Part shown: positions 292 to 22,351 of the stretch, piece by piece
Numbering within the stretch: the first letter of the stretch is position 1
Layout of the letters: each line of letters starts with the position of its first letter
Source of the DNA: a virus
Direction: 5' to 3' (one strand)
IMG/VR virus record: IMGVR_UViG_3300048833_000172
Location: 1 to 49,955 of that record
DNA: 49,955 nucleotides
Notes under the pieces: model-generated
What the model saw: only the letters and a program-made list of their open reading frames with translations
Databases searched by the model: none
Told to the model about the DNA's origin: nothing
Program-made: the position numbers and the translations under genes

Positions 292-310
292 ACTGTAGCG
301 ATCACGTCAA
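292..310 (-). promoter_or_regulatory. Leaderless promoter with TTGACGTGA upstream element
   Basis: On the minus strand TTGACGTGA (310-302) is followed after four bases by TACAGT (297-292) and after seven more by the ATG at 284. The same element with the same spacing occurs at 1182-1200, 6603-6621 and 22333-22351, so it is probably a phage promoter class. The element sits between this promoter and the plus-strand promoter at 317 and could serve both. Confidence 0.6.
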
Positions 311-316
311 GGGGCC

Positions 317-322
317 TATGAT
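317..322 (+). promoter_or_regulatory. -10 box TATGAT of a leaderless promoter
   Basis: TATGAT lies six bases before the ATG at 329, the geometry expected when transcription starts at the start codon. It diverges from the minus-strand promoter at 292-310. Confidence 0.5.
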
Positions 323-328
323 GCCCAC

Positions 329-514
329 ATGAAGCCTCATCGCATCACCTTGTACCGGGACGAAGCCGGTCGCTGGCGCTGGCGTCGGCAGGCGGGCAAC
401 GGTCGCATCGTCGCCGCCTCCGAGCAGGGGTTCAAGCGCCGCAAGTACGCCGAGAAGGACGCGATCAGCGAACTCCCGGCAGGCGTCGAGTACGACCTGC
501 TCATCCTGCCCTGA
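329..514 (+). CDS. DUF1508 (YegP-like) domain protein
   Basis: This 61-residue protein matches the short DUF1508/YegP fold: an aromatic strand with RWRWR near residues 15-19, then NGRIVAAS near 24-31, then GF, a Tyr and an AEKDAI helix. Family members are small alpha/beta proteins of unclear role found in bacteria and phages. It is the only plus-strand gene in the first 7.8 kb. It has its own leaderless-type promoter and its end overlaps the converging gene at 501-887 by 14 bases. Identification is by pattern only. Confidence 0.7.
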   Translation: MKPHRITLYRDEAGRWRWRRQAGNGRIVAASEQGFKRRKYAEKDAISELPAGVEYDLLILP

Positions 515-887
515 CTGCTGCCGTCATCGCCGCCTGGAGGGTGTTGTTGGCCTCCAACATCTGGTCGCCCTTGATGCCCTTCGAGCGCAGGCCGCGCACG
601 AAGCGCACGGCGTGGATGAGGGTCCGTTCGGCCTCCGACAGGTCGCCGACAGGCGCAGTCGACGCGCTGAACTCCTCCTGTTGCACCCGAGCCTTCGACG
701 TGGTGTGCCAGAGGTTCGAGTCGCACTGGTAGACGCGGACCCCGGAGCGGGCGTACCGGCCGGAGATCACCGCGTCCATCGCCCCGCTCTCGGTCTCGTA
801 ACCGAGCTTGCCGCATGGGCACTTGCGGGCCAGCCGCTTCACCGACGCCTTGGACGGTGGTCGCGACTGGCTGCGCTTCGGCCTCAC
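501..887 (-). CDS. Zinc-ribbon-like hypothetical protein
   Basis: The 128-residue product starts at a GTG that overlaps the preceding stop (GTGA at 884-887). The N-terminal 20 residues are basic and Ser/Pro-rich. Next comes a half zinc site, CPCGK, then a long helix, then VYQCDSNLWHTTS, where one Cys and one His could complete a metal site. This layout is seen in small actinophage proteins that read like degenerate zinc ribbons, possibly nucleic-acid binding. The C-terminal half is helical. No precise function can be given. Confidence 0.7.
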   Translation of the reverse strand: MRPKRSQSRPPSKASVKRLARKCPCGKLGYETESGAMDAVISGRYARSGVRVYQCDSNLWHTTSKARVQQEEFSASTAPVGDLSEAERTLIHAVRFVRGLRSKGIKGDQMLEANNTLQAAMTAAVRAG

Positions 888-1174
888 TGGAGGTCGGTGC
901 CCACGTCGAGCGGTGTCTGGCCGACGTAGCGCACGTACAGCACGCGTGTGTCGTCGACCATCCGAGATGTCGCCTCGTACTCGCCCTTCTCGATGCCCTT
1001 CAGGGTGCCGTTGTTGATCTGGGTGACCAGCGGGGCGATGTCCTTCACGTCCGGCACCGAGAGGCGAGCCCACTCGCCCGGGCGCTCCTGGAGGTTAGCG
1101 AGGACCGGGGCGTACTTCGGGGGTGCGCCGCGACCCTTGTTGGTGGTTGGTGGTTGTTCCCATGTGAGTTCCAT
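884..1174 (-). CDS. Hypothetical protein, possible small DNA-associated regulator
   Basis: The start at 1174 (MELTWEQ) is chosen over the in-frame ATGs at 1195 and 1183 because a TACCAT hexamer lies seven bases before it, giving a leaderless start and 96 residues. The start of the protein is Pro- and Lys-rich (GRGAPPKYAP). The rest looks like a compact alpha/beta domain with ITQINNGTLKGI-type segments followed by strands. Its position directly behind a dedicated promoter at the head of a two-gene unit suits a small regulatory or anti-host protein, but no family is recognised. Confidence 0.65.
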   Translation of the reverse strand: MELTWEQPPTTNKGRGAPPKYAPVLANLQERPGEWARLSVPDVKDIAPLVTQINNGTLKGIEKGEYEATSRMVDDTRVLYVRYVGQTPLDVGTDLQ

Positions 1175-1181
1175 GCGTGGC

Positions 1182-1200
1182 ATGGTAGGGCTCACGTCAG
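1182..1200 (-). promoter_or_regulatory. Leaderless promoter with CTGACGTGA upstream element
   Basis: On the minus strand CTGACGTGA (1200-1192), four bases, TACCAT (1187-1182), seven bases, then ATG 1174. The spacing is identical to that of the promoter at 292-310. Confidence 0.6.
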
Positions 1201-1204
1201 GCGG

Positions 1205-1366
1205 TCATCGCCACACGTAGTCCACGAGCACCTCGCGCCCCAGGCCCTCCATGACCGAGATGAGGTCGGCAACGATGATCGTTGGGCACGGGGCCGCGGG
1301 CAGGGTGAGCTCCATGAACGGGGCGGAGCTGATCCGCACGCACAGCACGGTCGCCTGGTCAGGCAC
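1205..1366 (-). CDS. 53-residue hypothetical protein downstream of the tailspike
   Basis: A GTG-started frame (VPDQATVLCV...) overlaps the last eight bases of the tailspike gene and ends just before the promoter at 1182-1200. It alternates hydrophobic strands with a short helix (VMEGLGREVLVDY), plausible for a small folded protein. Placement behind the tailspike suggests a partner or chaperone role, which is inference only. The frame is short, so it could be spurious. Confidence 0.5.
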   Translation of the reverse strand: MPDQATVLCVRISSAPFMELTLPAAPCPTIIVADLISVMEGLGREVLVDYVWR

Positions 1367-3293
1367 CCGGTGCCACCAACAGTGCCGCGATGTTGGCCGG
1401 GATGGGTTCGCGGGCGATCGATGCCGGCGGTGTGGCTCCCTGGTGATTGCGCCACCCGTTGGCGGCGAACGACGAACGAGAGTCCAGGGCGCCGGGGCCA
1501 GCCGATGTGGGGATCAGGTTGTACGACACCCGGCTGCCGTCCTGGTTCGTCTCCCCCCACATGCAGGCGGAGGCGCCGTTCGTGTTGCCGTCGGCAAACC
1601 AGTTGCCGGACAGGCGGGCGAACATCGTGTTGGCGGACGGCGGGTGGACGCCGTTCGAGTTCCAGGCAGCGAGCTGGGCGTAGCGGCTCGACGGGCCGAC
1701 GTCGTTGTTGCACATCTCGATGTCGTGCACCATGAAGTCGACGGCGCCGTAGCGGTAGCTCGTCGGGGCCGTCTCAGCGAGCCCGGTCGGCCGGTTGTCC
1801 TGGCGGACCATCACACACATGTCGCGGGCGGCCTCGATCGTGTTGCACCACACCTTCGTCCAGTTGGAGCCGAGCAGGCTCAGCCCGGCGTAGGTCACCG
1901 ACCCCTTGATCGTGTTGCCGACGATGTAGGACCAGTGCTGGGTGCGGGTCCCGGTGAGGGGCAGTAGGCCACCGCCGCTGATCTCCCACAGCAGACCCGA
2001 CTTCGACTCGCGACCGGGCGTCGAGATGATCGTGTTGCGGGCGACGACGCAGCGGGTGCACGTCTGGTCGAACCACAGCAGATGCACACCGGGTGCGTCC
2101 TCAACCACGTTGTCGGTGATGACGCCCTGGTCGGTCTTGCAGATCTTCACGGCGCCCGCGGTCGGCTCGGCGGGCCAGCCGCCGTGGTTCGACCGGTGGA
2201 ACACGTTGCCGACCAGCTTGAGGCCGTCAGCCCCGGTGGTCCCGCCGATCTGGGCGTGCGACTTGCCGGAGCGCACGAACACGTTGCCGGTGATCGTGAA
2301 GCCCGCCTTGGCGACGGTGAGCGGGATGCAGGCGTGGTCGACGAACGCGCACCGTTCGATGCGGGTTCCGGCGCTGAGGCCGCCGTAGTAGATGGCGGCG
2401 TAGCCCGAGGTGCTGCCGCTCTCCTGTGGTGATCCGTTGGCGTAGCGGCGCACGCCGATGCCGAGCAGGTTGACGCGGGCCGATGCGACCATGAGGCCGC
2501 GGTAGCGGGAGACGCGCACCTCTCTGCCGAGCGGGTTCGACCCGACGGTGATCGTGCCGCCCGAGACGCTGAACTCACCGGCTGCTGGCGCGCTGGCGAC
2601 GCGGCGCTGCAGGGCGCCGTCGATGAACAGTTGGTCGAAGTAGAACGTGGTCGAGGGCTTGTCGGTGGTGAACCCGGACGTGTTGCCAGCGTCGAACGTC
2701 CATCCCGGCACGGTCCACGGGCCAGTGCCCTGCCAACCGGCCACGACGGTCGATCCGTCGAACCACACCTGCTCGCCGGGGTACGCCTGGATGGTGAACG
2801 GCCGAGTGCTCGGCACAGAATGCCCGCCGCCGGTGGTGCCTTCCTCGTAGATGCCGCCACGCATCACGATCGTGCCGTCGACCGGCACCACCGAGTAGGC
2901 GCCACCGGAGCCGAACACGGTCCGCTTCGGTGCTGCCTCGGTACCGGGGTTCGCGTTGTTGCCTGCCGGGGACACGAAGATCGCGCCCGGCGGGATCGGG
3001 TAGTTCGAGGTGGGCACCGTGTTGCCGCTCTTGTCCAGCGACGGGGGGGGCGGGGGCGGCTCGGTCGCTTCGAGGGCAGCGATGCGCTCCAGCAGAGCCC
3101 CTGCGTCGGCCTCAGCCTTGGCTATGCGGCCCTTGAGGTCGACAACCTCGCCCTTCACCTCCGCCAGTTCGCCGTTCAGGGTAGAGATTCGGGAGGCCAG
3201 GGCCGCCGAGCTGATCGCCGTTGCGTCCTTACAGCGCTGCTCAAGTGCTGCGAGGACCGGGTCGAGGTCGGGATCGTAGGGCACGGTCGTCAC
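1359..3293 (-). CDS. Tailspike / receptor-binding protein with right-handed beta-helix
   Basis: The 644-residue protein has three parts. Residues about 20-75 form heptad-like repeats predicted to be a trimeric coiled coil. Residues 79-84 are a run of six prolines acting as a hinge. The remainder is a right-handed beta-helix of the pectate-lyase type, with the PAGNNANPGTEAAPKRT entry motif, repeated N-x-(F/V/I) turns (ITGNVF, LVGNVF, ITDNVV, ARNTI, VGNTI) and a final small domain. Such proteins bind or depolymerise surface glycans at the tail tip. The GTG start overlaps the previous stop (GTGA). It sits in an early-type minus-strand chain, far from the tail genes. A G8 tract at 3043-3050 encodes part of the proline hinge. 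Whether it is enzymatically active cannot be told. Confidence 0.85.
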   Translation of the reverse strand: MTTVPYDPDLDPVLAALEQRCKDATAISSAALASRISTLNGELAEVKGEVVDLKGRIAKAEADAGALLERIAALEATEPPPPPPSLDKSGNTVPTSNYPIPPGAIFVSPAGNNANPGTEAAPKRTVFGSGGAYSVVPVDGTIVMRGGIYEEGTTGGGHSVPSTRPFTIQAYPGEQVWFDGSTVVAGWQGTGPWTVPGWTFDAGNTSGFTTDKPSTTFYFDQLFIDGALQRRVASAPAAGEFSVSGGTITVGSNPLGREVRVSRYRGLMVASARVNLLGIGVRRYANGSPQESGSTSGYAAIYYGGLSAGTRIERCAFVDHACIPLTVAKAGFTITGNVFVRSGKSHAQIGGTTGADGLKLVGNVFHRSNHGGWPAEPTAGAVKICKTDQGVITDNVVEDAPGVHLLWFDQTCTRCVVARNTIISTPGRESKSGLLWEISGGGLLPLTGTRTQHWSYIVGNTIKGSVTYAGLSLLGSNWTKVWCNTIEAARDMCVMVRQDNRPTGLAETAPTSYRYGAVDFMVHDIEMCNNDVGPSSRYAQLAAWNSNGVHPPSANTMFARLSGNWFADGNTNGASACMWGETNQDGSRVSYNLIPTSAGPGALDSRSSFAANGWRNHQGATPPASIAREPIPANIAALLVAPGA

Positions 3294-3718
3294 GCTCGCT
3301 TTCCGGCGCCGTCGCCGTCATCGATCTGCTCCCAGAGTAGGGCGTATCCGATGATGTCCACGTACGAGTCATGTTTCGACCCGCCAGAGATGTTGCGCGC
3401 CATCTTCAGGGCGATCATGCAGGCCGCGACCTGGCCCGGCGCGACGCTGTCGAGGCCCAGAATCGGCGCCCAAAGGCGTGCGACGAGGCCGAAGGAGGCC
3501 CTCGCGTCGCCGTAGTCGTCACGCCGAGGCCCCGAGACCAGCATTTCGGCCTCCTGGGCGGTCGACAGGGGCTCCAAACCGCCGATTTCGGCGTTCGAGG
3601 CGGATTCGAGGGCCTTCGCGTGCGCGATGAGGGCTGGGATGGCGCCAGATCGGTGGCGAATGACGTCATCGGCGAGCTGATCGGTGATCGGTGAGGTCAT
3701 GGAGTGCCTTTCGGTCAT
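3290..3718 (-). CDS. DUF6378-like protein
   Basis: The protein has the signature layout of DUF6378-type phage proteins: RRDDYGDARASFGLVARLW, then a helix with ALKMARN, then HDSYVDIIGYA. Conserved Asp, Lys and His residues in paired helices resemble all-alpha nucleotide pyrophosphohydrolase (MazG-like) folds, so a nucleotide-handling role is possible. Two starts are plausible: ATG 3718, which overlaps the previous stop as ATGA (142 residues, chosen), and ATG 3700, which has an AAAGG ribosome-binding site six bases upstream (136 residues). It lies directly upstream of the tailspike and is probably co-transcribed with it. Confidence 0.75.
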   Translation of the reverse strand: MTERHSMTSPITDQLADDVIRHRSGAIPALIAHAKALESASNAEIGGLEPLSTAQEAEMLVSGPRRDDYGDARASFGLVARLWAPILGLDSVAPGQVAACMIALKMARNISGGSKHDSYVDIIGYALLWEQIDDGDGAGKRA

Positions 3719-3951
3719 GTGAGGTGGTCCTCGACCCACCAGTGGGCGGCGATACCCCACTGCAGGCCGTTGGTGACGAGGTAGGTGCCCCACGGGGCGG
3801 TCACGGAGCCCCCGTTGAGCAGGAAAGACACCCCTGACGGCACGATCGCACCCCCACAGGCGTCTGCTGCCTCCTGGGCGTTGTCGATGACGAGCGGCCC
3901 GAGGGCCTCGGTGAGCCCCAGGTCGTTCTCGGCGAGCGGAAGTCGGGTCAT
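3715..3951 (-). CDS. 78-residue hypothetical protein
   Basis: Start ATG 3951 overlaps the methyltransferase stop as ATGA and has AGGAG six bases upstream, so the start is well supported. The sequence ends in a Trp- and Gly-rich section (APWGTYLV, LQWGIAAHWWVEDH) after a helical N-terminus with two acidic patches. No conserved family is recognised. Confidence 0.65.
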   Translation of the reverse strand: MTRLPLAENDLGLTEALGPLVIDNAQEAADACGGAIVPSGVSFLLNGGSVTAPWGTYLVTNGLQWGIAAHWWVEDHLT

Positions 3952-4553
3952 CGTGGGCTCCTGAAGACCATGAGGGTGGAGAAGTTGCGAGCGGCGTGCA
4001 CCTGTCGGCGTCCGGGTGGCTGTGGGCGGTAGGAGGCGACGTGCAGCTCGTCGACAAGACGGCACCCCAGCGCCGTCGCGGCATTGGCGAACACCATGCG
4101 CTGCCAGCACACCTTCCCCGACACCACCATGTCCTGGCATTTGGCGAGGACGTAGCCATCGGGCCTCGTGACCCTCACCGCCTCGGCGAGACCGTCCAGC
4201 ATCAGCCTCAAGCGGTCGTCGACCGAGCGGTACTCGTGGATGCCGTACTTGCTGTCGAAGTGCGGAGTGGAGGTGCCTCGGAGGGCGTACGGGGGGTCGT
4301 AGGCGACCACGTCGAACACGTCGTCAGGGTAGGCAAGGCAGGTGAAGTCCATGACCCCGTCCGGGGCCTTCGCCGGGTCGAGGTCGTGGCGGTGTAGGCG
4401 TCCCTCCCACGGCAGCCACAGCTTCCACCAGTTGCCGAGGCCGTAGGTGGGGTCGAGGATGCGGTCGGTGGTGCGGATGTAGTCCAGTTCGACGCAGTCG
4501 AGGATCAGCTCGGCGTTCGTGCGCCGCCCGGTGTCGTAGGCGAGGACGGTCAC
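3948..4553 (-). CDS. DNA methyltransferase with DPPY motif (N6-adenine or N4-cytosine)
   Basis: The 201-residue protein carries a SAM-binding loop, DPTYGLG at residues 34-40, and the catalytic DPPY motif at residues 86-89, in a compact single-domain arrangement without a clear target-recognition domain. It should transfer a methyl group from SAM to an exocyclic amine of A or C in DNA. In phages such orphan enzymes commonly protect against host restriction. The GTG start overlaps the previous stop (GTGA). The DPPY tetrapeptide favours amino-methyltransferases over cytosine-C5 enzymes. The target sequence cannot be predicted. Confidence 0.8.
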   Translation of the reverse strand: MTVLAYDTGRRTNAELILDCVELDYIRTTDRILDPTYGLGNWWKLWLPWEGRLHRHDLDPAKAPDGVMDFTCLAYPDDVFDVVAYDPPYALRGTSTPHFDSKYGIHEYRSVDDRLRLMLDGLAEAVRVTRPDGYVLAKCQDMVVSGKVCWQRMVFANAATALGCRLVDELHVASYRPQPPGRRQVHAARNFSTLMVFRSPR

Positions 4554-4879
4554 CGTTCCCCCCCGTCACCCGACAGATAGGCAGCAGCCAACAGGTCGGC
4601 CATGCGCTTGCGGCTCGACGGCCCGAACAGCAACGCTGTGCTGCACGCCCACACCAGTGCTGCGGCGTCCTCTCGGGTGTCGTCGTCGGGTTCGGGGACC
4701 ACCCGAAACCCGGCGGCCACCAGGTGATCGATGTCGTCCTCGGCCTCCTCGACCAACCCTTGGCGCAACGTGGGCCGGACGTCGTCCCAGCCAACGAACC
4801 ACGGGTGGTCAGGCTCGAACTGCTCGGCCTCGTAGCGGGCACGGGCGAGCGCCTCGGCGGGTCCGCTGTCACTGGTCAC
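4550..4879 (-). CDS. 109-residue hypothetical acidic helical protein
   Basis: GTG 4879 has GAGGAG seven bases upstream and overlaps the previous gene by 11 bases. The product is acidic and mostly helical, with Trp residues in HPWFVGWDD and an EEAEDDIDHL helix. It contains no catalytic motif that can be recognised. It is coupled to the methyltransferase downstream by a GTGA overlap, so it may be co-regulated with it. Confidence 0.65.
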   Translation of the reverse strand: MTSDSGPAEALARARYEAEQFEPDHPWFVGWDDVRPTLRQGLVEEAEDDIDHLVAAGFRVVPEPDDDTREDAAALVWACSTALLFGPSSRKRMADLLAAAYLSGDGGER

Positions 4880-5078
4880 GGGTACACTCCTCGGCGGCGT
4901 AGACCTGTGCGGGCTGGGTCGGGAACGTCACCATCTCCTGCAACGCCTGATCGGTCTGCGGGGTGATGTCGTTGCCGAGCTTTGCCCGCTGGTAGGTGGC
5001 CGCGAGTTTGATCCACGCCACCATCTCGTCGCTCGGGTGGACGCATGGGCGCTTGGGGGTGGTGTCGGGGGTGGTCAC
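4869..5078 (-). CDS. 69-residue hypothetical protein
   Basis: GTG 5078 overlaps the previous stop as GTGA. The sequence begins with a Thr/Pro-rich stretch and then has an amphipathic helix (DEMVAWIKLAATYQRAKLG). No family is recognised. The gene is one link in the tightly packed chain between the DnaQ-like exonuclease and the methyltransferase. Confidence 0.6.
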   Translation of the reverse strand: MTTPDTTPKRPCVHPSDEMVAWIKLAATYQRAKLGNDITPQTDQALQEMVTFPTQPAQVYAAEECTRDQ

Positions 5079-5284
5079 GGGTAGCGCTCCAGGTTGTAGA
5101 CCTGGTCTTCCAGGATCTCGGCCAGCTCGCGCATCCCGTGAATGTCGAGCACCACACCGTCCTTCGACGCGCTGGGCGGCTTGATCTGGAAGCGGAGGAG
5201 GGGGGCGTTCGGGAAGCGGGTGACTTCCAGGGTCCGTTCCCCGTCGCTGCACTCGATGGTGGCGATGATGTTGGCGATGCTCAT
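5075..5284 (-). CDS. 69-residue hypothetical protein
   Basis: ATG 5284 overlaps the previous stop as ATGA. Alternating strands (IIATIECSDGERTLEVTRF, LLRFQIKP) followed by a C-terminal helix (GMRELAEILEDQVYNL) suggest a small beta-beta-alpha domain. No function can be assigned. Confidence 0.6.
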   Translation of the reverse strand: MSIANIIATIECSDGERTLEVTRFPNAPLLRFQIKPPSASKDGVVLDIHGMRELAEILEDQVYNLERYP

Positions 5285-5511
5285 GCGTAGCTCCAGGGTT
5301 GAGGGTTGAGGCGCAGCCACTCGGCGGACAGGTAGTCGCGGGTCCACGCACACACGGTGCCGCGAGCAACTCCGGCGTTCTTCGAGTCGGTCCACGGCCA
5401 AGCGTGGTGGCCGTTGCGTGGCCTGGGGTCGATGTCGTCGGCGTAGTGGGCGTCGTAGGACATGAAGTCAGTCATGTCCTTGCCGCAGCCGGGGCAGGCG
5501 AAGGCGCTCAC
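5281..5511 (-). CDS. 76-residue hypothetical protein with CxxC motif
   Basis: GTG 5511 overlaps the exonuclease stop as GTGA. A CPGCGKDM knuckle lies at the N-terminus. Possible further ligands are His residues in the middle and one Cys further on (GTVCAW), so a treble-clef-like zinc site is possible. Otherwise there is no recognisable domain. Confidence 0.6.
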   Translation of the reverse strand: MSAFACPGCGKDMTDFMSYDAHYADDIDPRPRNGHHAWPWTDSKNAGVARGTVCAWTRDYLSAEWLRLNPQPWSYA

Positions 5512-6101
5512 CGCCCCATCACCCGCTCGTAGATCGCCTTCGCCCATCGGGCGTCGGCAAGGGCGGTGTGGCGCACGTCATCGGCAGGCATCTCGATGCC
5601 GAGCGCCTCGGTGAGTTCGTCCGACTTCCACGGCGGCGCCACCGGCAACGGCTGGACGTAGCCACCAGGACGGACATCGCGAGGATCGGTGCGACCAGCG
5701 AGGTAGCCGATGGCGAGCGCCTCGACGTCGCAGATGTGATAGTGCCATGGGTACTTGCCCTCGGGGCGCCCGAGGTGGAGGTTGTGCATCCGCCGCAGCC
5801 GTTCCTCGTCGAAGGAGATGACGGCACCGACGAGGTGCAGCCCTTGCGACAGTGAGGCGAACAGCTCGGCTGACTCCTTCGGCGACAGGATCGGACAGGT
5901 CCCCTTGTCGTAGCGCTGCTCGAAGCCGTTGATCTCCAGGGCGATCGGCTCGGCGTTGTCGAGCACCGCCCGGGGCCACTTCACCTGCCAGAGATGCTCG
6001 GTGCCGTCGGCCTCGATGGCGGCGATCTCCCAGATCGGGTGACGCTCCGGGTCGAGCCCTAGGGTCTCAGTGTCGGTATACAGGACGGGGTGGTTGGTCA
6101 T
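5508..6101 (-). CDS. DnaQ-like 3'-5' exonuclease (DEDDh family)
   Basis: The 197-residue protein has the three exonuclease motifs in order: Exo I TDTETLGLD with Asp10 and Glu12, Exo II around VISFDEERLRR, and Exo III HTALADARWA with His178 and Asp183. These are the metal-binding and base residues of the DEDDh class. It would remove nucleotides from 3' ends, perhaps for proofreading, recombination or host DNA degradation. No polymerase is fused to it or lies nearby. Its start shares a base with the WhiB stop (TGATG). Confidence 0.8.
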   Translation of the reverse strand: MTNHPVLYTDTETLGLDPERHPIWEIAAIEADGTEHLWQVKWPRAVLDNAEPIALEINGFEQRYDKGTCPILSPKESAELFASLSQGLHLVGAVISFDEERLRRMHNLHLGRPEGKYPWHYHICDVEALAIGYLAGRTDPRDVRPGGYVQPLPVAPPWKSDELTEALGIEMPADDVRHTALADARWAKAIYERVMGR

Positions 6102-6565
6102 CAGTTCTCCTGGTTGAGCTGGTAGTGGAGCTTGTCGGTCGGCACGTCGTGACGACGGGTGGTGAGCCCTTGGCGGTAGGTGCGCAGGAGGGCGGCGTTG
6201 ATCGAGTTGCGGGGCCAGCGGCGGCCGGTCATCTCCAGGATGATGTCGTTCATCGTGTCAGCGGTGAACTCGGTGTCGGGGTGGTCCTCGAAGATCTCCG
6301 TGACGGCAGATGACAGTCCCTTGATAGCGCCCTTGCCGAGTCGGCCTCGCCGCCCGTAGCCCCGCTCCTCGGCGGTCATGCCGCCACGCACCCCGTAGGG
6401 CTCGGCGACCTGCTCGGCGCGACACGGCTCCTTCACGGGGCACGACGCGCAGACCTGCTTGGCGATCTCGTTGTCGCCGTCAGACTGGTCGTCGTCGTGC
6501 TCGGCCGGGAAGAACAGCGCCGTGGGGAACCCGCGGCAGGCGGCTTGCTCATGCCAGTCGCTCAT
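6101..6565 (-). CDS. WhiB-family iron-sulfur regulator with C-terminal extension
   Basis: The four iron-sulfur ligands of the WhiB family are present: Cys10, Cys39, Cys42 and Cys48, in the C-x2-C-x5-C arrangement. A GVRGG turn at 58-62 (the family usually has GVWGG) and the TAEER helix follow. WhiB proteins bind a 4Fe-4S cluster and regulate transcription by contacting the principal sigma factor. Phage copies can repress or replace the host's. Beyond the WhiB domain is a 75-residue extension with a possible second helical DNA-binding unit. A ribosome-binding site GGAAGG lies before ATG 6565, behind the promoter at 6603-6621. Confidence 0.85.
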   Translation of the reverse strand: MSDWHEQAACRGFPTALFFPAEHDDDQSDGDNEIAKQVCASCPVKEPCRAEQVAEPYGVRGGMTAEERGYGRRGRLGKGAIKGLSSAVTEIFEDHPDTEFTADTMNDIILEMTGRRWPRNSINAALLRTYRQGLTTRRHDVPTDKLHYQLNQEN

Positions 6566-6602
6566 CGCTCACCTTCCGCACGGACCATCCGTGCTCCATC
6601 GC

Positions 6603-6621
6603 ATCGTACGGATCACGTCAA
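6603..6621 (-). promoter_or_regulatory. Promoter of the WhiB unit, TTGACGTGA element
   Basis: Minus strand TTGACGTGA (6621-6613), four bases, TACGAT (6608-6603). Transcription should begin near 6596 and give a leader of about 30 bases before ATG 6565. It overlaps the end of the gene at 6613-6870, so it probably adds an extra input to the chain. Confidence 0.55.
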
Positions 6622-7840: not shown

Positions 7841-7853
7841 GTGCGCCTCCTGC

Positions 7854-7859
7854 TACGGT
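7854..7859 (+). promoter_or_regulatory. -10 box TACGGT of a leaderless promoter, head of the portal unit
   Basis: TACGGT lies exactly six bases before ATG 7866 in the 25-base divergent gap. There is no ribosome-binding site between them, so the mRNA is probably leaderless. Confidence 0.55.
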
Positions 7860-7865
7860 CTCGGC

Positions 7866-8372
7866 ATGGCGCAGCATAAGGTAACGACGGCGTCCATGCT
7901 GCGGGTGCGGATGCCCCAGGAACTCATCGACGCCTTCGACGTCCGCTGCAAGCGGCTGCGGGTGTCTCGGTCGGAACGGGTCCGTCAGCTCATCGAGCGC
8001 GAGGCCATGACCATGGATGGCCCCGGACCAGGCAAGGTTGCTCGGCGCCTACGTCGCCTGCGTCGCTGTGTCTCTTGCGGAGCCTTCGTGCGCAAGGGCT
8101 ACGCCTGCAAGATCTGCCGAGAGACCCTGATCGACTCCGTGGTCATCGCCGGGCAGGTGTTCCCTCTCCCAGAACTGCCACGCAGGGCTCTAGCGTCGCG
8201 CCCTGACACCAGAGACCCCCGCTGGGACGACGCCGAGGCCGTGATCCTCGACGCCTACGCTCCCCTGGTGGGGATCGTCTACGAGGCCCTGACCGGGGAG
8301 GACTCGCTCGAAATGACCGACCTGGACGACATCGCCGACCTGCTGGCGATGGCCGCATCGCTGCGCAACTGA
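7866..8372 (+). CDS. Ribbon-helix-helix / zinc-ribbon fusion, putative regulator
   Basis: Residues about 8-46 match a ribbon-helix-helix DNA-binding domain: a strand MLRVRMPQEL, helix A IDAFDVRCKRL, a turn at VSRSE, helix B RVRQLIERE. Residues 68-84 hold a CxxC...CxxC zinc ribbon (Cys68, Cys71, Cys81, Cys84) after an Arg-rich linker. The last 80 residues are acidic. Reading frames extend upstream of 7866, but the TACGGT box six bases before this ATG fixes the start. As the first gene of the plus-strand head unit it may bind its own divergent promoter region and switch between early (minus) and late (plus) transcription; that role is inferred. Confidence 0.75.
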   Translation: MAQHKVTTASMLRVRMPQELIDAFDVRCKRLRVSRSERVRQLIEREAMTMDGPGPGKVARRLRRLRRCVSCGAFVRKGYACKICRETLIDSVVIAGQVFPLPELPRRALASRPDTRDPRWDDAEAVILDAYAPLVGIVYEALTGEDSLEMTDLDDIADLLAMAASLRN

Positions 8373-8384
8373 GAGGCTGGAGCA

Positions 8385-9800: not shown

Positions 9801-9806
9801 CGGCCC

Positions 9807-15813: not shown

Positions 15814-16256
15814 CGGAGCACCACCTTCGGGGCGAAGGGGTTGTGGACGTCAGCGAGTTGCGCCCAGTACTTGTCGAGTCCACCCGGGGTGGGCCAGAGC
15901 CTGAACCTCTTGTAGAGGTTGCGGGCACGGGCACGCACCTCATCCGGCGTGGCCCCAGCCTCCAGCAGGTCGGCGGCGACCTTGGCGACCAGCTTGTGGT
16001 CGGCTGAACGCATGGACGGACGGTGCATGTCGCACGCCTCGATGATGGCGGCCTGCAGCTCACGGGCCGCCGAGCGGTCTGTGGTCGGCAGGGCGTCGGC
16101 CTTCGCCAGTGACTGCCGCACCGAGGCCACGCCCATCGACAGGGTTTCGGCGATCCTGTTCGGGTCGGTGCTGTCGAGCACATGCGCGGTCAGCAGCACC
16201 AGCTTGTCCTTCTGCGTGAAACGCTCCTCGGCGAGGAACGTCAGGTCAGACACCAT
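15810..16256 (-). CDS. Putative replication initiator / helicase partner
   Basis: The 148-residue protein starts at ATG 16256, which has a perfect AAGGAGG five bases upstream; a longer frame to 16295 is rejected. A helix-turn-helix-like stretch, PNRIAETLSMGVASVRQSLAKADALP, lies near residues 30-58. Further helices follow and a C-terminal section with PTPGGLDKYWAQL. Stop-start coupling to the helicase gene suggests it loads or recruits the helicase, as in phage replisome organisers. This is inferred from position and the HTH-like region. Confidence 0.6.
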   Translation of the reverse strand: MVSDLTFLAEERFTQKDKLVLLTAHVLDSTDPNRIAETLSMGVASVRQSLAKADALPTTDRSAARELQAAIIEACDMHRPSMRSADHKLVAKVAADLLEAGATPDEVRARARNLYKRFRLWPTPGGLDKYWAQLADVHNPFAPKVVLR

Positions 16257-16280
16257 GCCTGCCTCCTTCGTGTGGACCCG

Positions 16281-16286
16281 TATCAT
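16281..16286 (+). promoter_or_regulatory. -10 box TATCAT before the RusA gene
   Basis: TATCAT lies seven bases before ATG 16294 with no ribosome-binding site between, so a leaderless transcript is likely. It faces away from the replication block across a 37-base gap. Confidence 0.5.
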
Positions 16287-16293
16287 CGGCACC

Positions 16294-16653
16294 ATGTCAA
16301 CCTGGGTACTGTCCTACGACGCGAAGCCGTGGTCACTGAACCAGGAGCGCACGAAGCACTGGGCGTGGCGCCGGGAGCGTGTCGAGGAATGGCTCGCCGC
16401 CTATTACTGGATGGCGAAGGACGCCCACATCCCCCGCTGCGAGCGCATCGCCGTCACGGTGGACCTGCAGATGCCGGGAGTCGTGCAGGACATCGCGAAC
16501 TGCTACCCAGCGGTGAAAGCGTCTATCGATGGGCTCGTGCAGGCGGGGGTCATCGAGGACGACACGGCGGAACACCTGGTGTCGATCACGTTCAACGCCC
16601 CCACCCACGCGAAGCAGCCAAGGCTCACACTCACCGTCGAGCGGGTGGATTAG
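16294..16653 (+). CDS. RusA-like Holliday junction resolvase
   Basis: The 119-residue protein fits the short RusA family: N-terminal PWSLNQERTKHWAWRRERV, a strand IAVTVDLQMPG, then QDIANCYPAVKASIDGLVQAGVIEDDTAEHLVSITF. Asp66, Asn69, Lys75, Asp79, Asp89 and Asp90 occupy the places of the family's metal-binding aspartates and catalytic lysine. It would cut branched DNA before packaging. The start is set by the TATCAT box; upstream in-frame starts lie inside the opposing gene. Its stop and that of the SSB gene overlap in the four bases TTAG (16650-16653). Confidence 0.8.
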   Translation: MSTWVLSYDAKPWSLNQERTKHWAWRRERVEEWLAAYYWMAKDAHIPRCERIAVTVDLQMPGVVQDIANCYPAVKASIDGLVQAGVIEDDTAEHLVSITFNAPTHAKQPRLTLTVERVD

Positions 16654-17132
16654 TCGAGCATCCGCTCCGGGTAGGAACCGAACACGCCGGGCTGCCAATC
16701 GCCTGCTGGCACGACGAACGGCTCCTCATCCGTCGGGGGCGGACCCAGACGCTGCTGGTACCCGCCGTCGCCCTGGGAGCGCTCCGTGCGGCTCACCTGC
16801 GCGGTCGCCCAGCGCAGACTCGGGCTCACCTCGTCGGCCGTGATGGAGACCTTCGAGCGCTTCTCGCCGTTGTCTGTCTCCCAGGTACGGAAGTTGAGCT
16901 TGCCGATGATGACCAGGCGGGCACCCTTGGTGATCGACTCGGCGACGTTCTCGGCCAGCTCCCGCCAGCAGGTGACGTCATAGAACTCGGGGTCACCGTC
17001 GACCCACTTGTCACCGTCCTTGCGCCGGGTGTTCACGGCGACGCCCAACTCGCAGAGCACGGCGCCGGAGGATAGGAACTTCAGCTCGGGCTCGCGGACG
17101 GCGTTCCCGATGATGGTGACCGTCGTTGTCAT
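16650..17132 (-). CDS. ssb: Single-stranded DNA-binding protein (SSB)
   Basis: The 160-residue protein has the bacterial SSB OB-fold: TTVTIIGNAVREPELKFL, LGVAVNTRR, EFYDVTCWRELAENVAESITKGARLVIIGKLNFRTWE and VSITADEVSPSLRWA. The C-terminal tail is Gly/Pro-rich but ends in ERMLD rather than the usual acidic DDDIPF tip, so interaction with host repair proteins may differ. ATG 17132 has GGAGGG four bases upstream, and a TATGAT box at 17160-17165 gives a short leader. It binds ssDNA made by the helicase and the ERF pathway. Confidence 0.9.
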   Translation of the reverse strand: MTTTVTIIGNAVREPELKFLSSGAVLCELGVAVNTRRKDGDKWVDGDPEFYDVTCWRELAENVAESITKGARLVIIGKLNFRTWETDNGEKRSKVSITADEVSPSLRWATAQVSRTERSQGDGGYQQRLGPPPTDEEPFVVPAGDWQPGVFGSYPERMLD

Positions 17133-17159
17133 TGGACCCTCCGTAGGTAGTGTCCGCCC

Positions 17160-17165
17160 ATCATA
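17160..17165 (-). promoter_or_regulatory. -10 box TATGAT of the SSB promoter
   Basis: On the minus strand TATGAT lies 27 bases before ATG 17132. With a GGAGGG site in between, this is a leadered promoter. The opposite strand of the same 110-base gap must hold the major capsid promoter, which could not be identified with confidence. Confidence 0.45.
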
Positions 17166-17242
17166 GGGGACGTGATGGGCTTGCGTGTTCGTCGTCACGC
17201 CACTCCACTGTGGCAGTACGACGTCCTCGAAGGAGCCATGCT

Positions 17243-18982
17243 GTGGAGCGTCCCGAGATCCCCGAGAACATCGAGAGCCTGACGCTCTCCGAGCTGCGCG
17301 ACCTCCTGGGTGCGCTCCAGCCCTTCGTGGACGCGGCCCTGGCCGCCGACGAGGTGACCGACATCGACCTGCTGACCTCCTACGCGGAGATCGGTGAGGC
17401 GGTGATGGCGAAGACCGAGGCCGAGGCTGCCGCCCTGGCCGCCCGTGAGCGTGCGGCGAGCATCGCTGCTGCCATGTCCGACGAGGGCGAGCCCGAAGCC
17501 GATGAGGCCGCCGACGAGGAGCCCGCCGAGACGGCCGATGAGGCAGCCGAGGACGAGGACGAGGCCGACGAGGAGACCGAGGCGGAGGCTGCGGCCGATG
17601 AGACCGAGGAACTCGCCGACGAGACGCTGGACCATTCCGCCGAGGAGGCAGAGGATGGCGAGGCCGAGATGAGCGACACCGGCACCGAGACCGAGGAGTC
17701 CGAAGTGGACAAGCCCAGCACCGACGACCTGAGCGGCGACACCGACACCACCGAGGTGGAGACCCCCGGCGTCGTCACGACCGCCCGGGTGCTGCCCGGC
17801 GTCCCCGGCTTCGAGGCGAACGCCCCCGTCGACTCCCGCCTGGACGTCGCCAAGGCCCTGGCCGCCAAGTGGCAGACCGTGGCCGAGTCCGGCACCGGCG
17901 AGCGCTTCGCCGTGGTCAGCATCAAGGCCGAGTACCCGGACTTCGCCGACTTCACCAGCGGCGACTTCTCCGGCCTGTACGACGACGCGATCGTCGCTGC
18001 CTGCGCTCCCCTGGAGCCCTACTACGGCGTCGGCTTCTACTCGTCCGAGGCCCGGCCGGTCTTCGGCTCGATGCCGAAGTTCAACGCCCCCCGTGGCGGC
18101 GTGAAGATCTACGCCTCGCCCCGGTTCTCCGACGACCTGATCCCCGATGGTGACGGCTTCGGGCAGTGGACCCGCTCCGACGACAACAACCCGTCGGCGT
18201 CGAAGAACGACTGCTACGACTTCGAGTGCGGCGAGACCACCGACTACGAGGTCTACGGCGTCTACCGCTGCATGAACATCCGCAACCTGGACGCGATCAC
18301 GTTCCCGGAGCTGGTGGCGGCACACCAGAACCAGCTCGGGTCGAAGTTCGCCCGCTACGCCGACAAGCTCCTGCTCGACGCGATGGTGGCGACCGCCGAC
18401 ATCGCCGTGCACGCCTCGGCGACCTACGGTGCGACCCGCACGATCCTGTCCCGCATGGACCAGATCGCTGCGCAGTACCGGGAGAACGAGCGTCTCGACG
18501 ACACCCCGGTGCTCGACATCTGGCTGCCCCGCTGGATCAAGAACGCCCTCCGCGAGGACGTCATCCGTGCGGCGAACGACTCGGGCGTGCCCGAGGTGGT
18601 GGTCGACGCCACCATCGCCTCCTGGTTCGGTGACATCGGCCTGGTGCCGCACTTCACCTTCGACAACCCGACCGCTGCGGGCGACCTGAGCGTCCAGAGC
18701 GGCGGTGTGGTCAACGCCTGGCCGGACACGACCTGGTACATCCTGTCGGTCCGGGGCAACCTGGGCATCCTCGACCTGGGCAGCATCAACATCGGTGTGA
18801 GCCCTAACGGGTCCTTCCGTGACTCGGCGCTGACGAAGCGCAACCGCTTCCAGATGTTCATGGAGTCCTTCGAGGGCCTCGTGAACCGTGGGGCGCCCGT
18901 GTGGCGTGGCGAGGTGACGGTCCTGGCGAACGGCGCACAGCCCGCCGGTGTGACCGCCATCAGCGACAACGCCACCGTCTGA
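17243..18982 (+). CDS. Major capsid protein with N-terminal acidic scaffold region
   Basis: The start is GTG 17243 (VERPEIPENI), with AAGGAG seven bases upstream; a longer frame to 17150 lacks support. Residues 1-80 are helical. Residues about 85-175 are extremely acidic Glu/Asp/Ala/Thr repeats that look like a scaffold or delta domain. The remaining roughly 390 residues form the shell domain, with SRLDVAKALAAKWQTVAE, SIKAEYPDFADF, PRFSDDLIPDGDGFGQW and a C-terminal NRFQMFMESFEGLVNRGAPVW. The protease at 12602 probably removes the scaffold near residues 170-190. A strong terminator hairpin follows, as expected for a very abundant product. Confidence 0.85.
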   Translation: MERPEIPENIESLTLSELRDLLGALQPFVDAALAADEVTDIDLLTSYAEIGEAVMAKTEAEAAALAARERAASIAAAMSDEGEPEADEAADEEPAETADEAAEDEDEADEETEAEAAADETEELADETLDHSAEEAEDGEAEMSDTGTETEESEVDKPSTDDLSGDTDTTEVETPGVVTTARVLPGVPGFEANAPVDSRLDVAKALAAKWQTVAESGTGERFAVVSIKAEYPDFADFTSGDFSGLYDDAIVAACAPLEPYYGVGFYSSEARPVFGSMPKFNAPRGGVKIYASPRFSDDLIPDGDGFGQWTRSDDNNPSASKNDCYDFECGETTDYEVYGVYRCMNIRNLDAITFPELVAAHQNQLGSKFARYADKLLLDAMVATADIAVHASATYGATRTILSRMDQIAAQYRENERLDDTPVLDIWLPRWIKNALREDVIRAANDSGVPEVVVDATIASWFGDIGLVPHFTFDNPTAAGDLSVQSGGVVNAWPDTTWYILSVRGNLGILDLGSINIGVSPNGSFRDSALTKRNRFQMFMESFEGLVNRGAPVWRGEVTVLANGAQPAGVTAISDNATV

Positions 18983-19008
18983 TCCTCCTCCAGAGGGAAC
19001 GGCTGATG

Positions 19009-19036
19009 AGGGCGGGGACCTCCGGGTCCTCGCCCT
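19009..19036 (+). terminator. Terminator hairpin after the major capsid gene
   Basis: A 12-bp stem (19009-19020 with 19025-19036, one G-T pair) encloses a four-base loop 26 bases after the capsid stop. There is no T tract, which is common for high-GC hosts. Confidence 0.65.
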
Positions 19037-19058
19037 TCGTCGTTCACGGAGACTGTCC

Positions 19059-19064
19059 TACCCT
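19059..19064 (+). promoter_or_regulatory. Possible -10 box TACCCT after the capsid terminator
   Basis: TACCCT directly precedes a CTGACGTGA copy (19063-19071) in the 111-base gap, 30 bases before ATG 19094, which has its own GAGGAG site. A restart promoter here would offset the terminator. Spacing differs from the four well-formed TGACGTGA promoters. Confidence 0.3.
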
Positions 19065-19093
19065 GACGTGAGACCTGATCGAGGAGCCTTGCC

Positions 19094-19873
19094 ATGACCA
19101 TCGGGATGTTCGAGTCTCGTATCCTCCCGTCGCACCGCCCCCGCCCGTACGGGCTGCTGCAGGTGGCGGACGTGACGATCTACGGCGACGGCACGACCCG
19201 CTGGTTGGCGGGTGTGGACGCCGTGGCACTCGATGTGGAGCGCCTGACGGGTATCGACCTGACGGCGTGCGACCCGCCCGCCTCGGGCGCCTGGGACCTC
19301 TCGGCAACTGCCTCGGGTGGCCCCTACGAGTTCCGGGCCTTCTCCTCCATCATTAGGGCGCAGTGCGGCACCACGTCAGGGCCGGACACGCTGGAGGCGA
19401 TGGTGACGAACACCCGCGCCGAGCACCTCGCGAAGCTGCCCGACATCCTCGATGACGAGCTGATCCTCGGGTCGGTCTCGGGGGTGACGACGAACTCGCT
19501 GAACACGCTGGCGACGGGGTCAAACCCGACCGGCGCCGTGACAGGTGCGGCACTGGTCGGCCACGCCGAGGCACTGGCGACCTATGAGTCGATCATCATG
19601 GTCCCGACGGCCCTGTTCCCCGCCGCTGCAGATGCTGCGGTGCGCGACGGTGACGTGTGGCGCACCAGGATCGGCAACGTGCTGGTGCCGCAGTCCGCCG
19701 ACGCCAACGTGTACGTCCTGCCCGCCCCGCTGACCGTGCGACTCATCGAGCCCGACGTGTCGCCCCGTTCGTGGGTCCAGCGAGACCTGAACGACGTCGA
19801 GGCCCAGTCCACGATCATGGGCCTGTTCGAGTTCCGCGCCGACGAGGTCGCGAAGTTCGACCCGACGCCCTGA
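19094..19873 (+). CDS. Putative virion structural protein following the capsid gene
   Basis: The 259-residue protein is translated from ATG 19094 behind GAGGAG. It starts with a beta-rich region (YGLLQVADVTIYGDGTTRWLAGVD), then has a helical middle with NTRAEHLAKLPDILDDELILG and a C-terminal half with VPTALFPAAADAAVRDGDVW and GNVLVPQSADANVYVLP. Length and location directly after the major capsid gene resemble a second capsid or head-associated protein of actinophages. No exact family was recognised. Confidence 0.6.
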   Translation: MTIGMFESRILPSHRPRPYGLLQVADVTIYGDGTTRWLAGVDAVALDVERLTGIDLTACDPPASGAWDLSATASGGPYEFRAFSSIIRAQCGTTSGPDTLEAMVTNTRAEHLAKLPDILDDELILGSVSGVTTNSLNTLATGSNPTGAVTGAALVGHAEALATYESIIMVPTALFPAAADAAVRDGDVWRTRIGNVLVPQSADANVYVLPAPLTVRLIEPDVSPRSWVQRDLNDVEAQSTIMGLFEFRADEVAKFDPTP

Positions 19874-19903
19874 TCCCTGAACACCTACCCCTAGGAGAAT
19901 CCT

Positions 19904-20215
19904 GTGGAACAGTTCGTCGCAGTGGCGGTTGTGGTCGCCTTCGGCCTCAACCTCATCAACATCTTCAAGCTGGCCTCGGCCGGTCAGTGGCAGCGGGTGA
20001 GCACGGCAGTGTTCTCCTACGCCGTGTTCGTCGCCCTGACTTTCGTGCTGCGCGAGAGCGACTTCGCGGGCTCCGTGGCGGTCGGCGACTTCAACCTCGA
20101 CTCACTGAACGTGTGGTCGACAGTCCTGTTCGGCGTGTCCCTCGCTGGTGCTGCTGGCACCGCTTACGACGCCCTGCCGATCAGCACTCCCTCCCTGGGC
20201 GACCGCCAAGACTGA
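19904..20215 (+). CDS. Small membrane protein, holin candidate
   Basis: The 103-residue protein has three hydrophobic segments (about residues 3-21, 32-49 and 70-87) separated by short polar turns, and a short Ser/Asp-rich tail. GTG 19904 has AGGAGA five bases upstream. Its size, topology and position two genes upstream of the endolysin make it the best holin candidate. Competing candidates are the membrane proteins at 28048 and 28408. Confidence 0.6.
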   Translation: MEQFVAVAVVVAFGLNLINIFKLASAGQWQRVSTAVFSYAVFVALTFVLRESDFAGSVAVGDFNLDSLNVWSTVLFGVSLAGAAGTAYDALPISTPSLGDRQD

Positions 20216-20216
20216 C

Positions 20217-21116
20217 GTGACGATCTCCACCTGGGAACGTTTCCTCCACTCGATCACCGGGTGGAGCACCTACACGCTGCCCAACGCCGAACAGGTGCGG
20301 GTACCGAAGGCGCGTTCCCGGGTGGAGGAGTCCGCCCCCTACGACTGGCCCGAGGCGTTCAGGGGCCTGACGTACCGCACCAGCAAGCTCTGGACCGCCA
20401 ACTCGAAGGGGGTGGGACCGGGCCAGCCCATGCAGAACGGCCTCGCGTCGACGAGGTCGCTGACCTGGGGCTGGGCCGAGTACGGGGAGCGCAACTCCAC
20501 GGTCATCCCTCGCCCCGTGTCGGGTTGGTACTGGACGACGGGATACCCGTCGCCGTACTTCGACCGGCACTGCATCATCGCCGCACCGGATGGCTCGGTG
20601 CACGAGATGATCCAGCTCGACCCGTTCGCCCCGACCAGGCAGCTCCCCTTCCCGAACCAGGCCCTGGGCTGGGGTCGGTGGGTGGACGGAGTGTGTCGCC
20701 AAGGCCGTCCATCGTCGGCGGTGGGTCGCCCCATCCATCAGTACGTCTGGACGCCATGGTCGCACCTGGAGCCCCACGAGCAGCGCCTCGTGTTGCACGA
20801 CTACGTTGGAGCGGACGGGGCGCTCACCGACGGACCGAGTGTCGGTAGTCGGTTCCGCCTACGGCCCGGGTCGCCATCACACACTCGCAACCTCGCTCTC
20901 GGCGGGGACTGCGCCGCACGGGCGAACGCCCTGGTCGACTACGGCTGCGAGCTTCAGGATCGCTCCGGGTACCTCGATGCATCAGTCGAGTCTCGCAAGG
21001 TCGGCACGCAGCCACTCCCACCATCGCTGGCAACGCAGCCGGGGCGGCAGTGGAAGGCCATGAACGCCCACCTGTTCAGCACCGACCTCGCCGACCTCGA
21101 ACTGGTCACCCGGTAG
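20217..21116 (+). CDS. Hypothetical Trp-rich protein between holin candidate and endolysin
   Basis: The 299-residue product starts at GTG 20217, two bases after the previous stop. It is unusually rich in Trp, Tyr, Pro and Gly (WTANSKGVGPGQPMQ, SGWYWTTGYPSPYFDRHC, NQALGWGRWVDGVC, YVWTPWSHLEPHEQRLVLHDYVG), a composition typical of carbohydrate-binding or secreted beta-rich proteins. No signal peptide or catalytic motif is clear. It may be a virion surface or lysis-associated protein. The function is not recognised. Confidence 0.6.
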   Translation: MTISTWERFLHSITGWSTYTLPNAEQVRVPKARSRVEESAPYDWPEAFRGLTYRTSKLWTANSKGVGPGQPMQNGLASTRSLTWGWAEYGERNSTVIPRPVSGWYWTTGYPSPYFDRHCIIAAPDGSVHEMIQLDPFAPTRQLPFPNQALGWGRWVDGVCRQGRPSSAVGRPIHQYVWTPWSHLEPHEQRLVLHDYVGADGALTDGPSVGSRFRLRPGSPSHTRNLALGGDCAARANALVDYGCELQDRSGYLDASVESRKVGTQPLPPSLATQPGRQWKAMNAHLFSTDLADLELVTR

Positions 21117-21119
21117 CCT
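21114..21119 (+). promoter_or_regulatory. -10 box TAGCCT before the endolysin gene
   Basis: TAGCCT overlaps the stop of the preceding gene and lies six bases before ATG 21126. The endolysin transcript is probably leaderless. Confidence 0.5.
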
Positions 21120-21125
21120 GCACGC

Positions 21126-21842
21126 ATGACGGTTGCACACTCCGGCCGCTGGGCGGGCGGGACCTGGAAGCTCGCCCCCTGCCTTGTGGCGCTGGAGGCG
21201 GAGGCCGACCGGATCGCCCCAACCAGACGGCGTGGCAGCGACGGCTCGATCGGTGACCGGGCGCACGCCGCCAGACGCTCCGATCACAACCCCGACGAGG
21301 AAGGAGCGACGGACTGGGTTGATGCGCTGGACATCACCCATGACCCGGAGCGAGGCATGGACATCCACGCGCGCCTGCGCGTCGTTGCCCAGAACGTGCG
21401 CAACGGCATCGAGCACAGGGTCAGCTACCTGATCTCCAACAAGCAGATCTTCTCCGAGAAGAACGGAGTGTGGGCCTGGCGGCCCTACGGCGGCGACAAC
21501 CCCCACACCCAGCACGGTCACATCTCGGTCAACGACGCGCATCGCGGTGACACCAGCGCCTGGTTCAGCACCCCACCTCTGCCGACCCCCCCACTGCAGC
21601 TCCCCTTCCTCAACGGCAAGCCACACCAAGGACCCGACATGCGCTTCTTCATCACCGACCCCGCCTACGGCATCCGCCTCGTCATCTGTGACGGCCACAC
21701 CGTCATCGACTTCGGCGTCACCAACGTGTTCACCCAGCTCCGGCCCGGAGAGGTAGGCGGGGCGATGTCCCCTGCAGCCTTCGCTGCGTTCTGGGCGAAG
21801 TACCCCGGCGGGCGGATCGCCATGGGCCACCTCCCGACCTGA
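21126..21842 (+). CDS. Endolysin, M15-type peptidase
   Basis: Residues about 1-140 match the peptidase M15 family: RRSDHNPDEEGATDWVDALDITHDPERGMD, then NPHTQHGHISV. His54, Asp69 and His132 are the expected zinc ligands. It would cut peptide bonds in peptidoglycan stems or cross-bridges. A Pro-rich linker (PPLPTPPLQLP) near residue 150 leads to a C-terminal domain of about 80 residues (RFFITDPAYGIRLVICDGHTVIDF) that may bind the cell wall. There is no signal peptide, so release needs a holin. A leaderless start and a following hairpin make it an independent transcription unit. Confidence 0.85.
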   Translation: MTVAHSGRWAGGTWKLAPCLVALEAEADRIAPTRRRGSDGSIGDRAHAARRSDHNPDEEGATDWVDALDITHDPERGMDIHARLRVVAQNVRNGIEHRVSYLISNKQIFSEKNGVWAWRPYGGDNPHTQHGHISVNDAHRGDTSAWFSTPPLPTPPLQLPFLNGKPHQGPDMRFFITDPAYGIRLVICDGHTVIDFGVTNVFTQLRPGEVGGAMSPAAFAAFWAKYPGGRIAMGHLPT

Positions 21843-21868
21843 TCCTCACCCGGAGAGTGGAAGTTGGC

Positions 21869-21923
21869 GGGTTGGAGACAGCGCCCCGCCCCGTTTCTGG
21901 AGCAGGGGCGCAGCGTCTCACCC
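21869..21923 (+). terminator. Structured hairpin after the endolysin gene
   Basis: Paired blocks GGGT/ACCC, GAGAC/GTCTC and GCGCCCC/GGGGCGC stack into one imperfect stem starting 27 bases after the endolysin stop. It is probably the endolysin terminator, without a T tract. Confidence 0.5.
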
Positions 21924-22140
21924 ATCGAGCATCAGCCGTAGGGGTCATCGTCGTGCGGCCGACGGGAATTACTCGTCGGCACTACCGGGCATCTCTCGAC
22001 GAGCTGGGCTGCGTATCTGGGCAGCGTGGTCACCAACCACGATCGTCCGGGTGTCCCTTCACCGATCCTGTCGTCGAGCACGGAGGAAGAATCCGGCTCT
22101 AACCCGGGACGTCAACGGTGGTGAACCGTCAGCCTCGTTC

Positions 22141-22237
22141 TGATACAGTGAGGCCCGCTGTTGGTGCAGCACGCAGTGTAGCCTCACGGGGCGATCACGC
22201 AAGGACGACCCCCGGACCCACCCCCGGGGGTCGTCTG
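22141..22237 (+). ncRNA. Candidate small RNA 1 (extended -10 promoter to terminator hairpin)
   Basis: TGATACAGT (22141-22149) fits an extended -10 element (TGnTAnnnT). An RNA starting near 22156 would run about 80 bases into the strong 12-bp hairpin at 22204-22235. No start codon with a ribosome-binding site lies between. The blocks GTGAGGC (22148-22154) and GCCTCAC (22181-22187) can also pair. Existence is inferred from these signals only. Confidence 0.3.
22204..22235 (+). terminator. 12-bp GC-rich terminator hairpin
   Basis: GACGACCCCCGG (22204-22215) pairs perfectly with 22224-22235 around an eight-base loop. It is the strongest perfect stem in the gene-free region. No T tract follows. 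Confidence 0.6.
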
Positions 22238-22250
22238 CTGTCCGGGCTTC

Positions 22251-22316
22251 TGCTAGAGTGGTCGTCGCTGGTTGGTAGATACATCCGGTAGCGGCCGTCC
22301 TTCGGGGCGGCTGTTG
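22251..22316 (+). ncRNA. Candidate small RNA 2, ending in a TTCG-loop hairpin
   Basis: TGCTAGAGT (22251-22259) is a second extended -10 element. A transcript from about 22266 would end in an 11-bp hairpin (22290-22300 with 22305-22315, three G-T pairs) closed by a stable TTCG tetraloop, giving an RNA of about 50 bases. There is no coding potential. Evidence is structural only. Confidence 0.3.
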
Positions 22317-22332
22317 CCGTTCTGGACCACGG

Positions 22333-22351
22333 TTGACGTGATTGTTACGAT
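22333..22351 (+). promoter_or_regulatory. Promoter of the Rpf lipoprotein gene, TTGACGTGA element
   Basis: TTGACGTGA (22333-22341), four bases, TACGAT (22346-22351): the same geometry as the three minus-strand copies near 300, 1190 and 6610. It would give a leader of about 65 bases containing a hairpin and a GAGGAGG site before GTG 22423. Confidence 0.6.

Follow-up and report, generated by a model that had tools for sequence, protein, structure and literature searches.

Four places in this virus record carry the same short box at the same distance from a TACNNT hexamer, which raises the question of whether they form one class of promoters and, if so, what reads the box. The window, that is, the whole stretch of DNA that was analysed, is the entire virus record of 49,955 bases (GC 67%). 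Exactly four matches to YTGACGTGA-N4-TACNNT are present in it (Table 1), at the positions and on the strands that a first-pass annotation had given, while 0.00 were expected from 100 dinucleotide shuffles, the pattern itself having been derived from these four sites. There are no sites with one or two mismatches in the window, so the four-site set is sharply bounded; with up to three mismatches allowed, we found 12 matches as compared to 13.7 expected.

Read in its own direction, the element consists of the box (T/C)TGACGTGA, four bases, TAC..T, seven bases and an A, at four of the four sites. Numbered from this A as the inferred +1, the hexamer occupies -13 to -8 and the box -26 to -18, with the box centre at about -22. 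The first-pass annotation had noticed that the hexamer lies exactly 7 nt ahead of the ATG at sites 1 and 2, which is borne out (ATGs at 284 and 1174), and had missed that an A also follows 7 nt after the hexamer at sites 3 and 4 (6595 and 22359). All four hexamers are noncoding, and each site is on the same strand as a gene that starts 7–71 nt downstream of the hexamer (7, 7, 37, and 71 nt at sites 1–4). The two further copies of TGACGTGA previously reported to lack the full layout are indeed there, at 19064 and 20213; the latter is probably incidental, since it lies in the overlap of a stop codon with the next GTG start.

Table 1. Boxed sites, inferred transcription starts, the genes behind the sites, and the RHH protein gene (coordinates in the window).
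Feature	Position	Strand	Details
Site 1	292..310	-	box TTGACGTGA 310-302, spacer TCGC, -10 TACAGT 297-292
Site 1 inferred +1	284	-	A of ATG; leaderless
30-aa leaderless ORF MKKLLTTMFIEGDTGNGYYGTGFWFSVVRP behind site 1	192..284	-	stop overlaps next GTG start (GTGA)
Site 2	1182..1200	-	box CTGACGTGA 1200-1192, spacer GCCC, -10 TACCAT 1187-1182
Site 2 inferred +1	1174	-	A of ATG; leaderless
96-aa gene behind site 2	884..1174	-	phrog_2660-like, no assigned function
Site 3	6603..6621	-	box TTGACGTGA 6621-6613, spacer TCCG, -10 TACGAT 6608-6603
Site 3 inferred +1	6595	-	A; 30-nt leader with GCACGG/CCGTGC hairpin and Shine-Dalgarno-like GGAAGG
WhiB-like gene, first behind site 3	6101..6565	-	4 Cys, PF02467 E=1e-15
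Site 4	22333..22351	+	box TTGACGTGA 22333-22341, spacer TTGT, -10 TACGAT 22346-22351
Site 4 inferred +1	22359	+	A; 64-nt leader with perfect 10-bp hairpin 22372-22396 and AGGAGG
Predicted lipoprotein, first gene behind site 4	22423..22857	+	lytic-transglycosylase-like features, by sequence reading
Ribbon-helix-helix (RHH) and zinc-ribbon-like protein	7866..8372	+	RHH_1 E=7e-5

The ORF behind site 1 resembles the coupled leaderless small ORFs known in mycobacteria (PMC4633059), and the predicted lipoprotein behind site 4 had no match among PHROGs. At site 3, the final TGA of the box doubles as the stop codon of the upstream gene, and the leader hairpin has a z of -2.1 (36-nt stretch); the hairpin of the site 4 leader has a z of -3.3 (67-nt stretch). 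The -10 of site 4 happens to carry a TGn extension, so that this promoter could work alone. Site 4 is part of a 580-bp noncoding stretch (21843–22422, plus strand) that also holds two similar extended -10s (TTCTGNTANAGTG at 22138 and 22248), with a strong hairpin after each -10 (22204–22235; about 22286–22315, with a UUCG loop; and 22372–22396), and tandem promoters with short RNAs or terminators are possible in this region.

The hexamer itself can be judged from the starts of other genes. TANNNT lies 6–8 nt ahead of the start codon in 10 of the 72 called genes, against 0.6 expected from the TANNNT rate at 12–59 nt before starts, and the peak at 6–8 nt is sharp despite the uncertainty of single starts (the gene calls come from a home-made hexamer model followed by manual correction, and individual starts may be wrong). 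From this excess, the TACNNT hexamer is very probably a -10, and the phage appears to use leaderless promoters without a -35; leaderless promoters of a similar kind are common in mycobacteria (PMC4633059). Sites 1 and 2 have the form of a leaderless actinobacterial -10 (TANNNT 6–8 nt before ATG/GTG), while sites 3 and 4 have leaders. None of the four sites has the layout of an ordinary sigma-A promoter, in which a TTGACA-like -35 stands 16–19 bp from TANNNT, as no such -35 was found 16–19 nt upstream of TACNNT. There is also no TANNNT 15–20 nt downstream of TTGACG at any of them, and TTGACG as a classical -35 is ruled out on spacing. A translation signal is rejected on spacing as well, the distance from the box to the start codon being variable. 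This spacing check supports the earlier view that the repeated promoter element is no normal -35, and the genome-wide leaderless pattern supports the hexamer as a -10. Among conventional promoters, the best candidate in the noncoding regions is the promoter-like TTGTCA-N16-TAGTGT at 17125–17165 (plus strand; -10 at 17148), which precedes the capsid gene by about 95 nt.

Not all of these promoters carry the box. It is present at two of the ten leaderless TANNNT starts, those of sites 1 and 2, which also account for the only two occurrences of TACNNT-N7-ATG in the window. The eight other leaderless starts (7866, 9807, 21126, 28735, 30821, 32378, 33524, and 34213; all rightward) belong mostly to virion genes, plus the RHH protein, and have neither a -35 nor the box, which makes the box an add-on to a basic -10 promoter and not a universal part of it.

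We propose, with about even confidence, that the four sites are promoters of a single class specific to this phage, activated by a regulator that sits at about -26 to -18 and contacts the holoenzyme. Host RNA polymerase with its housekeeping sigma factor would recognise TACNNT as the -10 and would start at the A located 7 nt downstream of the hexamer, leaderless at two genes. The asymmetric box T/C-TGACGTGA of these -35-less promoters would be bound by a regulator that the phage itself probably encodes. This regulator would contact the holoenzyme much as PafBC and AfsR do in sigma adaptation or T4 MotA/AsiA in sigma appropriation, and would coordinate one rightward transcript with three leftward ones, those of the WhiB-led operon, the 96-aa gene, and the 30-aa ORF. 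Such contact with the polymerase is suggested by the spacing, which is exactly 4 bp at all four promoters, dissimilar as they otherwise are. In Actinobacteria, there is precedent for activators that sit upstream of the -10 where the -35 is poor (PMC11804915, PMC10936776). Against an activator class, the eight leaderless -10s without a -35 or box indicate that the box is dispensable for promoter function, and it may equally be a repressor operator.

This is the main rival to the activator reading: the box would be the operator of a phage repressor, e.g., the RHH protein, that blocks sigma-A at a self-sufficient leaderless -10 promoter. Judging from the boxless promoters, the basic promoter can do without a box, and the RHH gene has a boxless promoter of its own at 7866; the box is nearly palindromic (TGAC/GTGA, three of four pairs), as single RHH-dimer sites can be, and a protein at -26 to -18 would occlude RNA polymerase. 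However, a repressor does not need the exact 4-bp spacing between box and hexamer that all four sites have, and among the genes examined, on a contig that is maybe incomplete, none was recognised as an integrase or as part of a repressor/immunity module. We consider an operator possible although somewhat unlikely, and an activator bridging to sigma-A, being more likely than a repressor, is our best reading.

The statistical standing of the motif depends on the DNA searched. When four-site motifs (any four sites with an 8-mer and flanking columns in common) were sought without bias across the whole genome, the element was not above shuffled genomes and fell outside the top 40, whose lowest score was 91.1 (shuffle maxima, 83–104). 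The motif is thus statistically unexceptional without restriction to noncoding DNA, which, together with there being only four sites, speaks against the activator class. In a search of noncoding DNA only, which is where promoters are to be expected, it was the top motif with a score of 89.4, which none of 300 dinucleotide shuffles reached (highest shuffle scores, 74.4 and 76.2, for seeds of 7 or 8 bases). Noncoding positions with a same-strand gene start 5–90 nt downstream make up about 1.5% of strand-positions, and all four hexamers are among them.

These searches bear on the possibility that, next to real -10s, the boxes resemble one another by chance or for reasons other than transcription, favoured, for example, by stop/start overlaps (GTGA). 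Two TGA and one GTG fall within TGACGTGA, as is natural where genes adjoin; the 20213 copy is exactly such an overlap, the site 3 box supplies the upstream stop codon, and the whole-genome search does not pick out the element. Chance is disfavoured by the noncoding-restricted search and by the spacing to TACNNT and to the +1 A, which is identical at four of four sites although only one box overlaps a called stop, and a translation signal is disfavoured by start codons that lie at varying distances past the hexamer. We regard the motif as real, and a coincidental box on real -10s as decidedly improbable.

Within the collections searched, the box is private to this phage. The scan of viral contigs returned 111 stretches as compared to at least 120 for the reversed control, i.e., no enrichment; the 35 terminase/capsid relatives had no match to the pattern; and for the exact word TTGACGTGA in the literature, the best-ranked among the matches listed were all unrelated. 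The scan of related phages proposed in the first-pass annotation gave no match: close relatives are absent from the collections searched and distant ones lack the element. That a host regulator reads the box, the phage having borrowed a host regulon signal, is most improbable: the layout is like that of the host PafBC promoter, with a TTGNC-type block just upstream of a -35-less -10 (PMC5656591), but the spacing and sequence are unlike the PafBC motif, and the idea is already largely refuted by the 397 actinobacterial genomes (four matches, at most one per genome, against one for the reversed control) and by the GTDB set (54 matches to the leaderless form, 0 in Actinomycetes), in neither of which the box recurs upstream of several genes.

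The host is likely actinobacterial, judging from the portal protein, which matches chiefly portals of actinobacterial phages, the capsid, which matches mainly Microbacterium and Gordonia phages, and the WhiB-like genes. Three different WhiB-like genes are found in this one 50-kb phage (6101–6565, minus; 41038–41679, plus; 46310–46699, minus). Searches with the terminase and capsid gave distant matches only (best about 39% identity), and the relatives checked were without WhiB. No close relative turned up among phage records, a megablast search with the first 25 kb returning no match; queries with the helicase, WhiB, tape measure, and 96-aa proteins found no relative among viral contigs, and Rfam and tRNA scans of the sequence had no match. 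An exact 127-nt direct repeat (49666–49792 and 49829–49955, 163-bp period) ends at the contig end; because 127 is a common assembler k-mer length, the contig probably breaks off within a tandem repeat or an assembly loop and may not hold the complete genome.

With no actinobacterial regulon, no widespread viral element, and none in the 35 relatives, the reader of the box is probably phage-encoded, and the four boxed promoters look like a small virus-specific control network. In line with the suggestion of the first-pass annotation, the WhiB-like protein behind site 3 and the RHH protein are candidate regulators. The WhiB-like protein has a C-terminal extension of about 75 aa in which no family was detected. 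Its nearest phage relatives, Sparky gp75 and P1312_083, have shorter tails, to which this extension does not align. In a structure model of the protein (mean pLDDT 53), the extension is weakly modelled as helical or winged-HTH-like; Foldseek matches to this model were insignificant (E>1), several of the top ones being winged-HTH folds, which gives a hint of such a fold. The RHH gene, leaderless and boxless with an extended -10 (TGC-TACGGT), may encode an early regulator. To our knowledge, the working of phage WhiB proteins is largely untested. A rather improbable form of the activator reading makes this WhiB-like protein itself the reader: its WhiB domain would sit on sigma-A region 4 and its winged-HTH-like extension would read TTGACGTGA, giving a two-domain sigma adaptor for -35-less, 4-bp-spaced promoters that drives its own gene from site 3.

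As far as its sequence indicates, the element would work like a phage- or regulator-specific box that replaces the -35, yet it departs from the defining sequence or spacing of each such class tested. PafBC-dependent (RecA-NDp) promoters of mycobacteria, at which PafBC activates by sigma adaptation (PMC11804915, PMC5656591), also have an asymmetric box just upstream of a TANNNT -10 and a poor -35, but their motif is tTGTCRgtg at 8 nt from the -10 (PMC5656591), as compared to TTGACGTGA at 4 nt in the phage. In T4 middle promoters (MotA box and AsiA), a phage-specific box replaces the -35 and the host -10 is kept, whereas the MotA box is centred near -30 (PMC6755090) and the box described here, of another sequence, at about -22. 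AfsR/SARP promoters of Streptomyces are -35-poor with an activator box in the -10/-35 spacer, but SARP boxes form direct repeats spaced at 11-bp intervals, the last repeat lying 8 bp from the -10 (PMC10936776), and by inspection the phage element has none. The Cluster K start-associated sequences (SAS) and Cluster A stoperators of mycobacteriophages are likewise short asymmetric repeats, many of them in small intergenic gaps and mostly transcription-oriented (PMC3203893, PMC4351075). They differ in sequence, have many copies, are tied to start codons (SAS) or transcription silencing (stoperators), and are not at a fixed spacing to a -10: the SAS is GGGATAGGAGCCC near start codons (PMC3203893), while the phage box has a different sequence and a variable distance to the start codon. 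A stoperator is an asymmetric repressor site, oriented with transcription, that silences by halting it; the phage box is asymmetric and oriented, whatever its function, and its fixed -10 is not a stoperator feature. In the WhiB7 regulon, a WhiB protein that binds sigma-A, together with a DNA module, gives an autoregulated promoter class (PMC3905903), and a phage WhiB gene lies directly behind one box. WhiB7 promoters, however, need an AT-rich element immediately upstream of a real -35, and the phage sites have neither; the DNA upstream of sites 1 and 2 is GC-rich (58% and 67% over 45 nt). Sigma-54 promoters have GG at -24 and GC at -12, and the phage sites share their block-N4-block layout but lack these invariant dinucleotides.

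The roughly ten leaderless, -35-less promoters in one phage are a by-product that is useful for annotation. If the box is an activator site, the four promoters would represent an actinophage counterpart to the T4 middle-promoter system, compact and with the box unusually close to the -10, and would offer a self-contained set in which to study how the actinobacterial housekeeping polymerase is redirected by WhiB or RHH proteins of phages.
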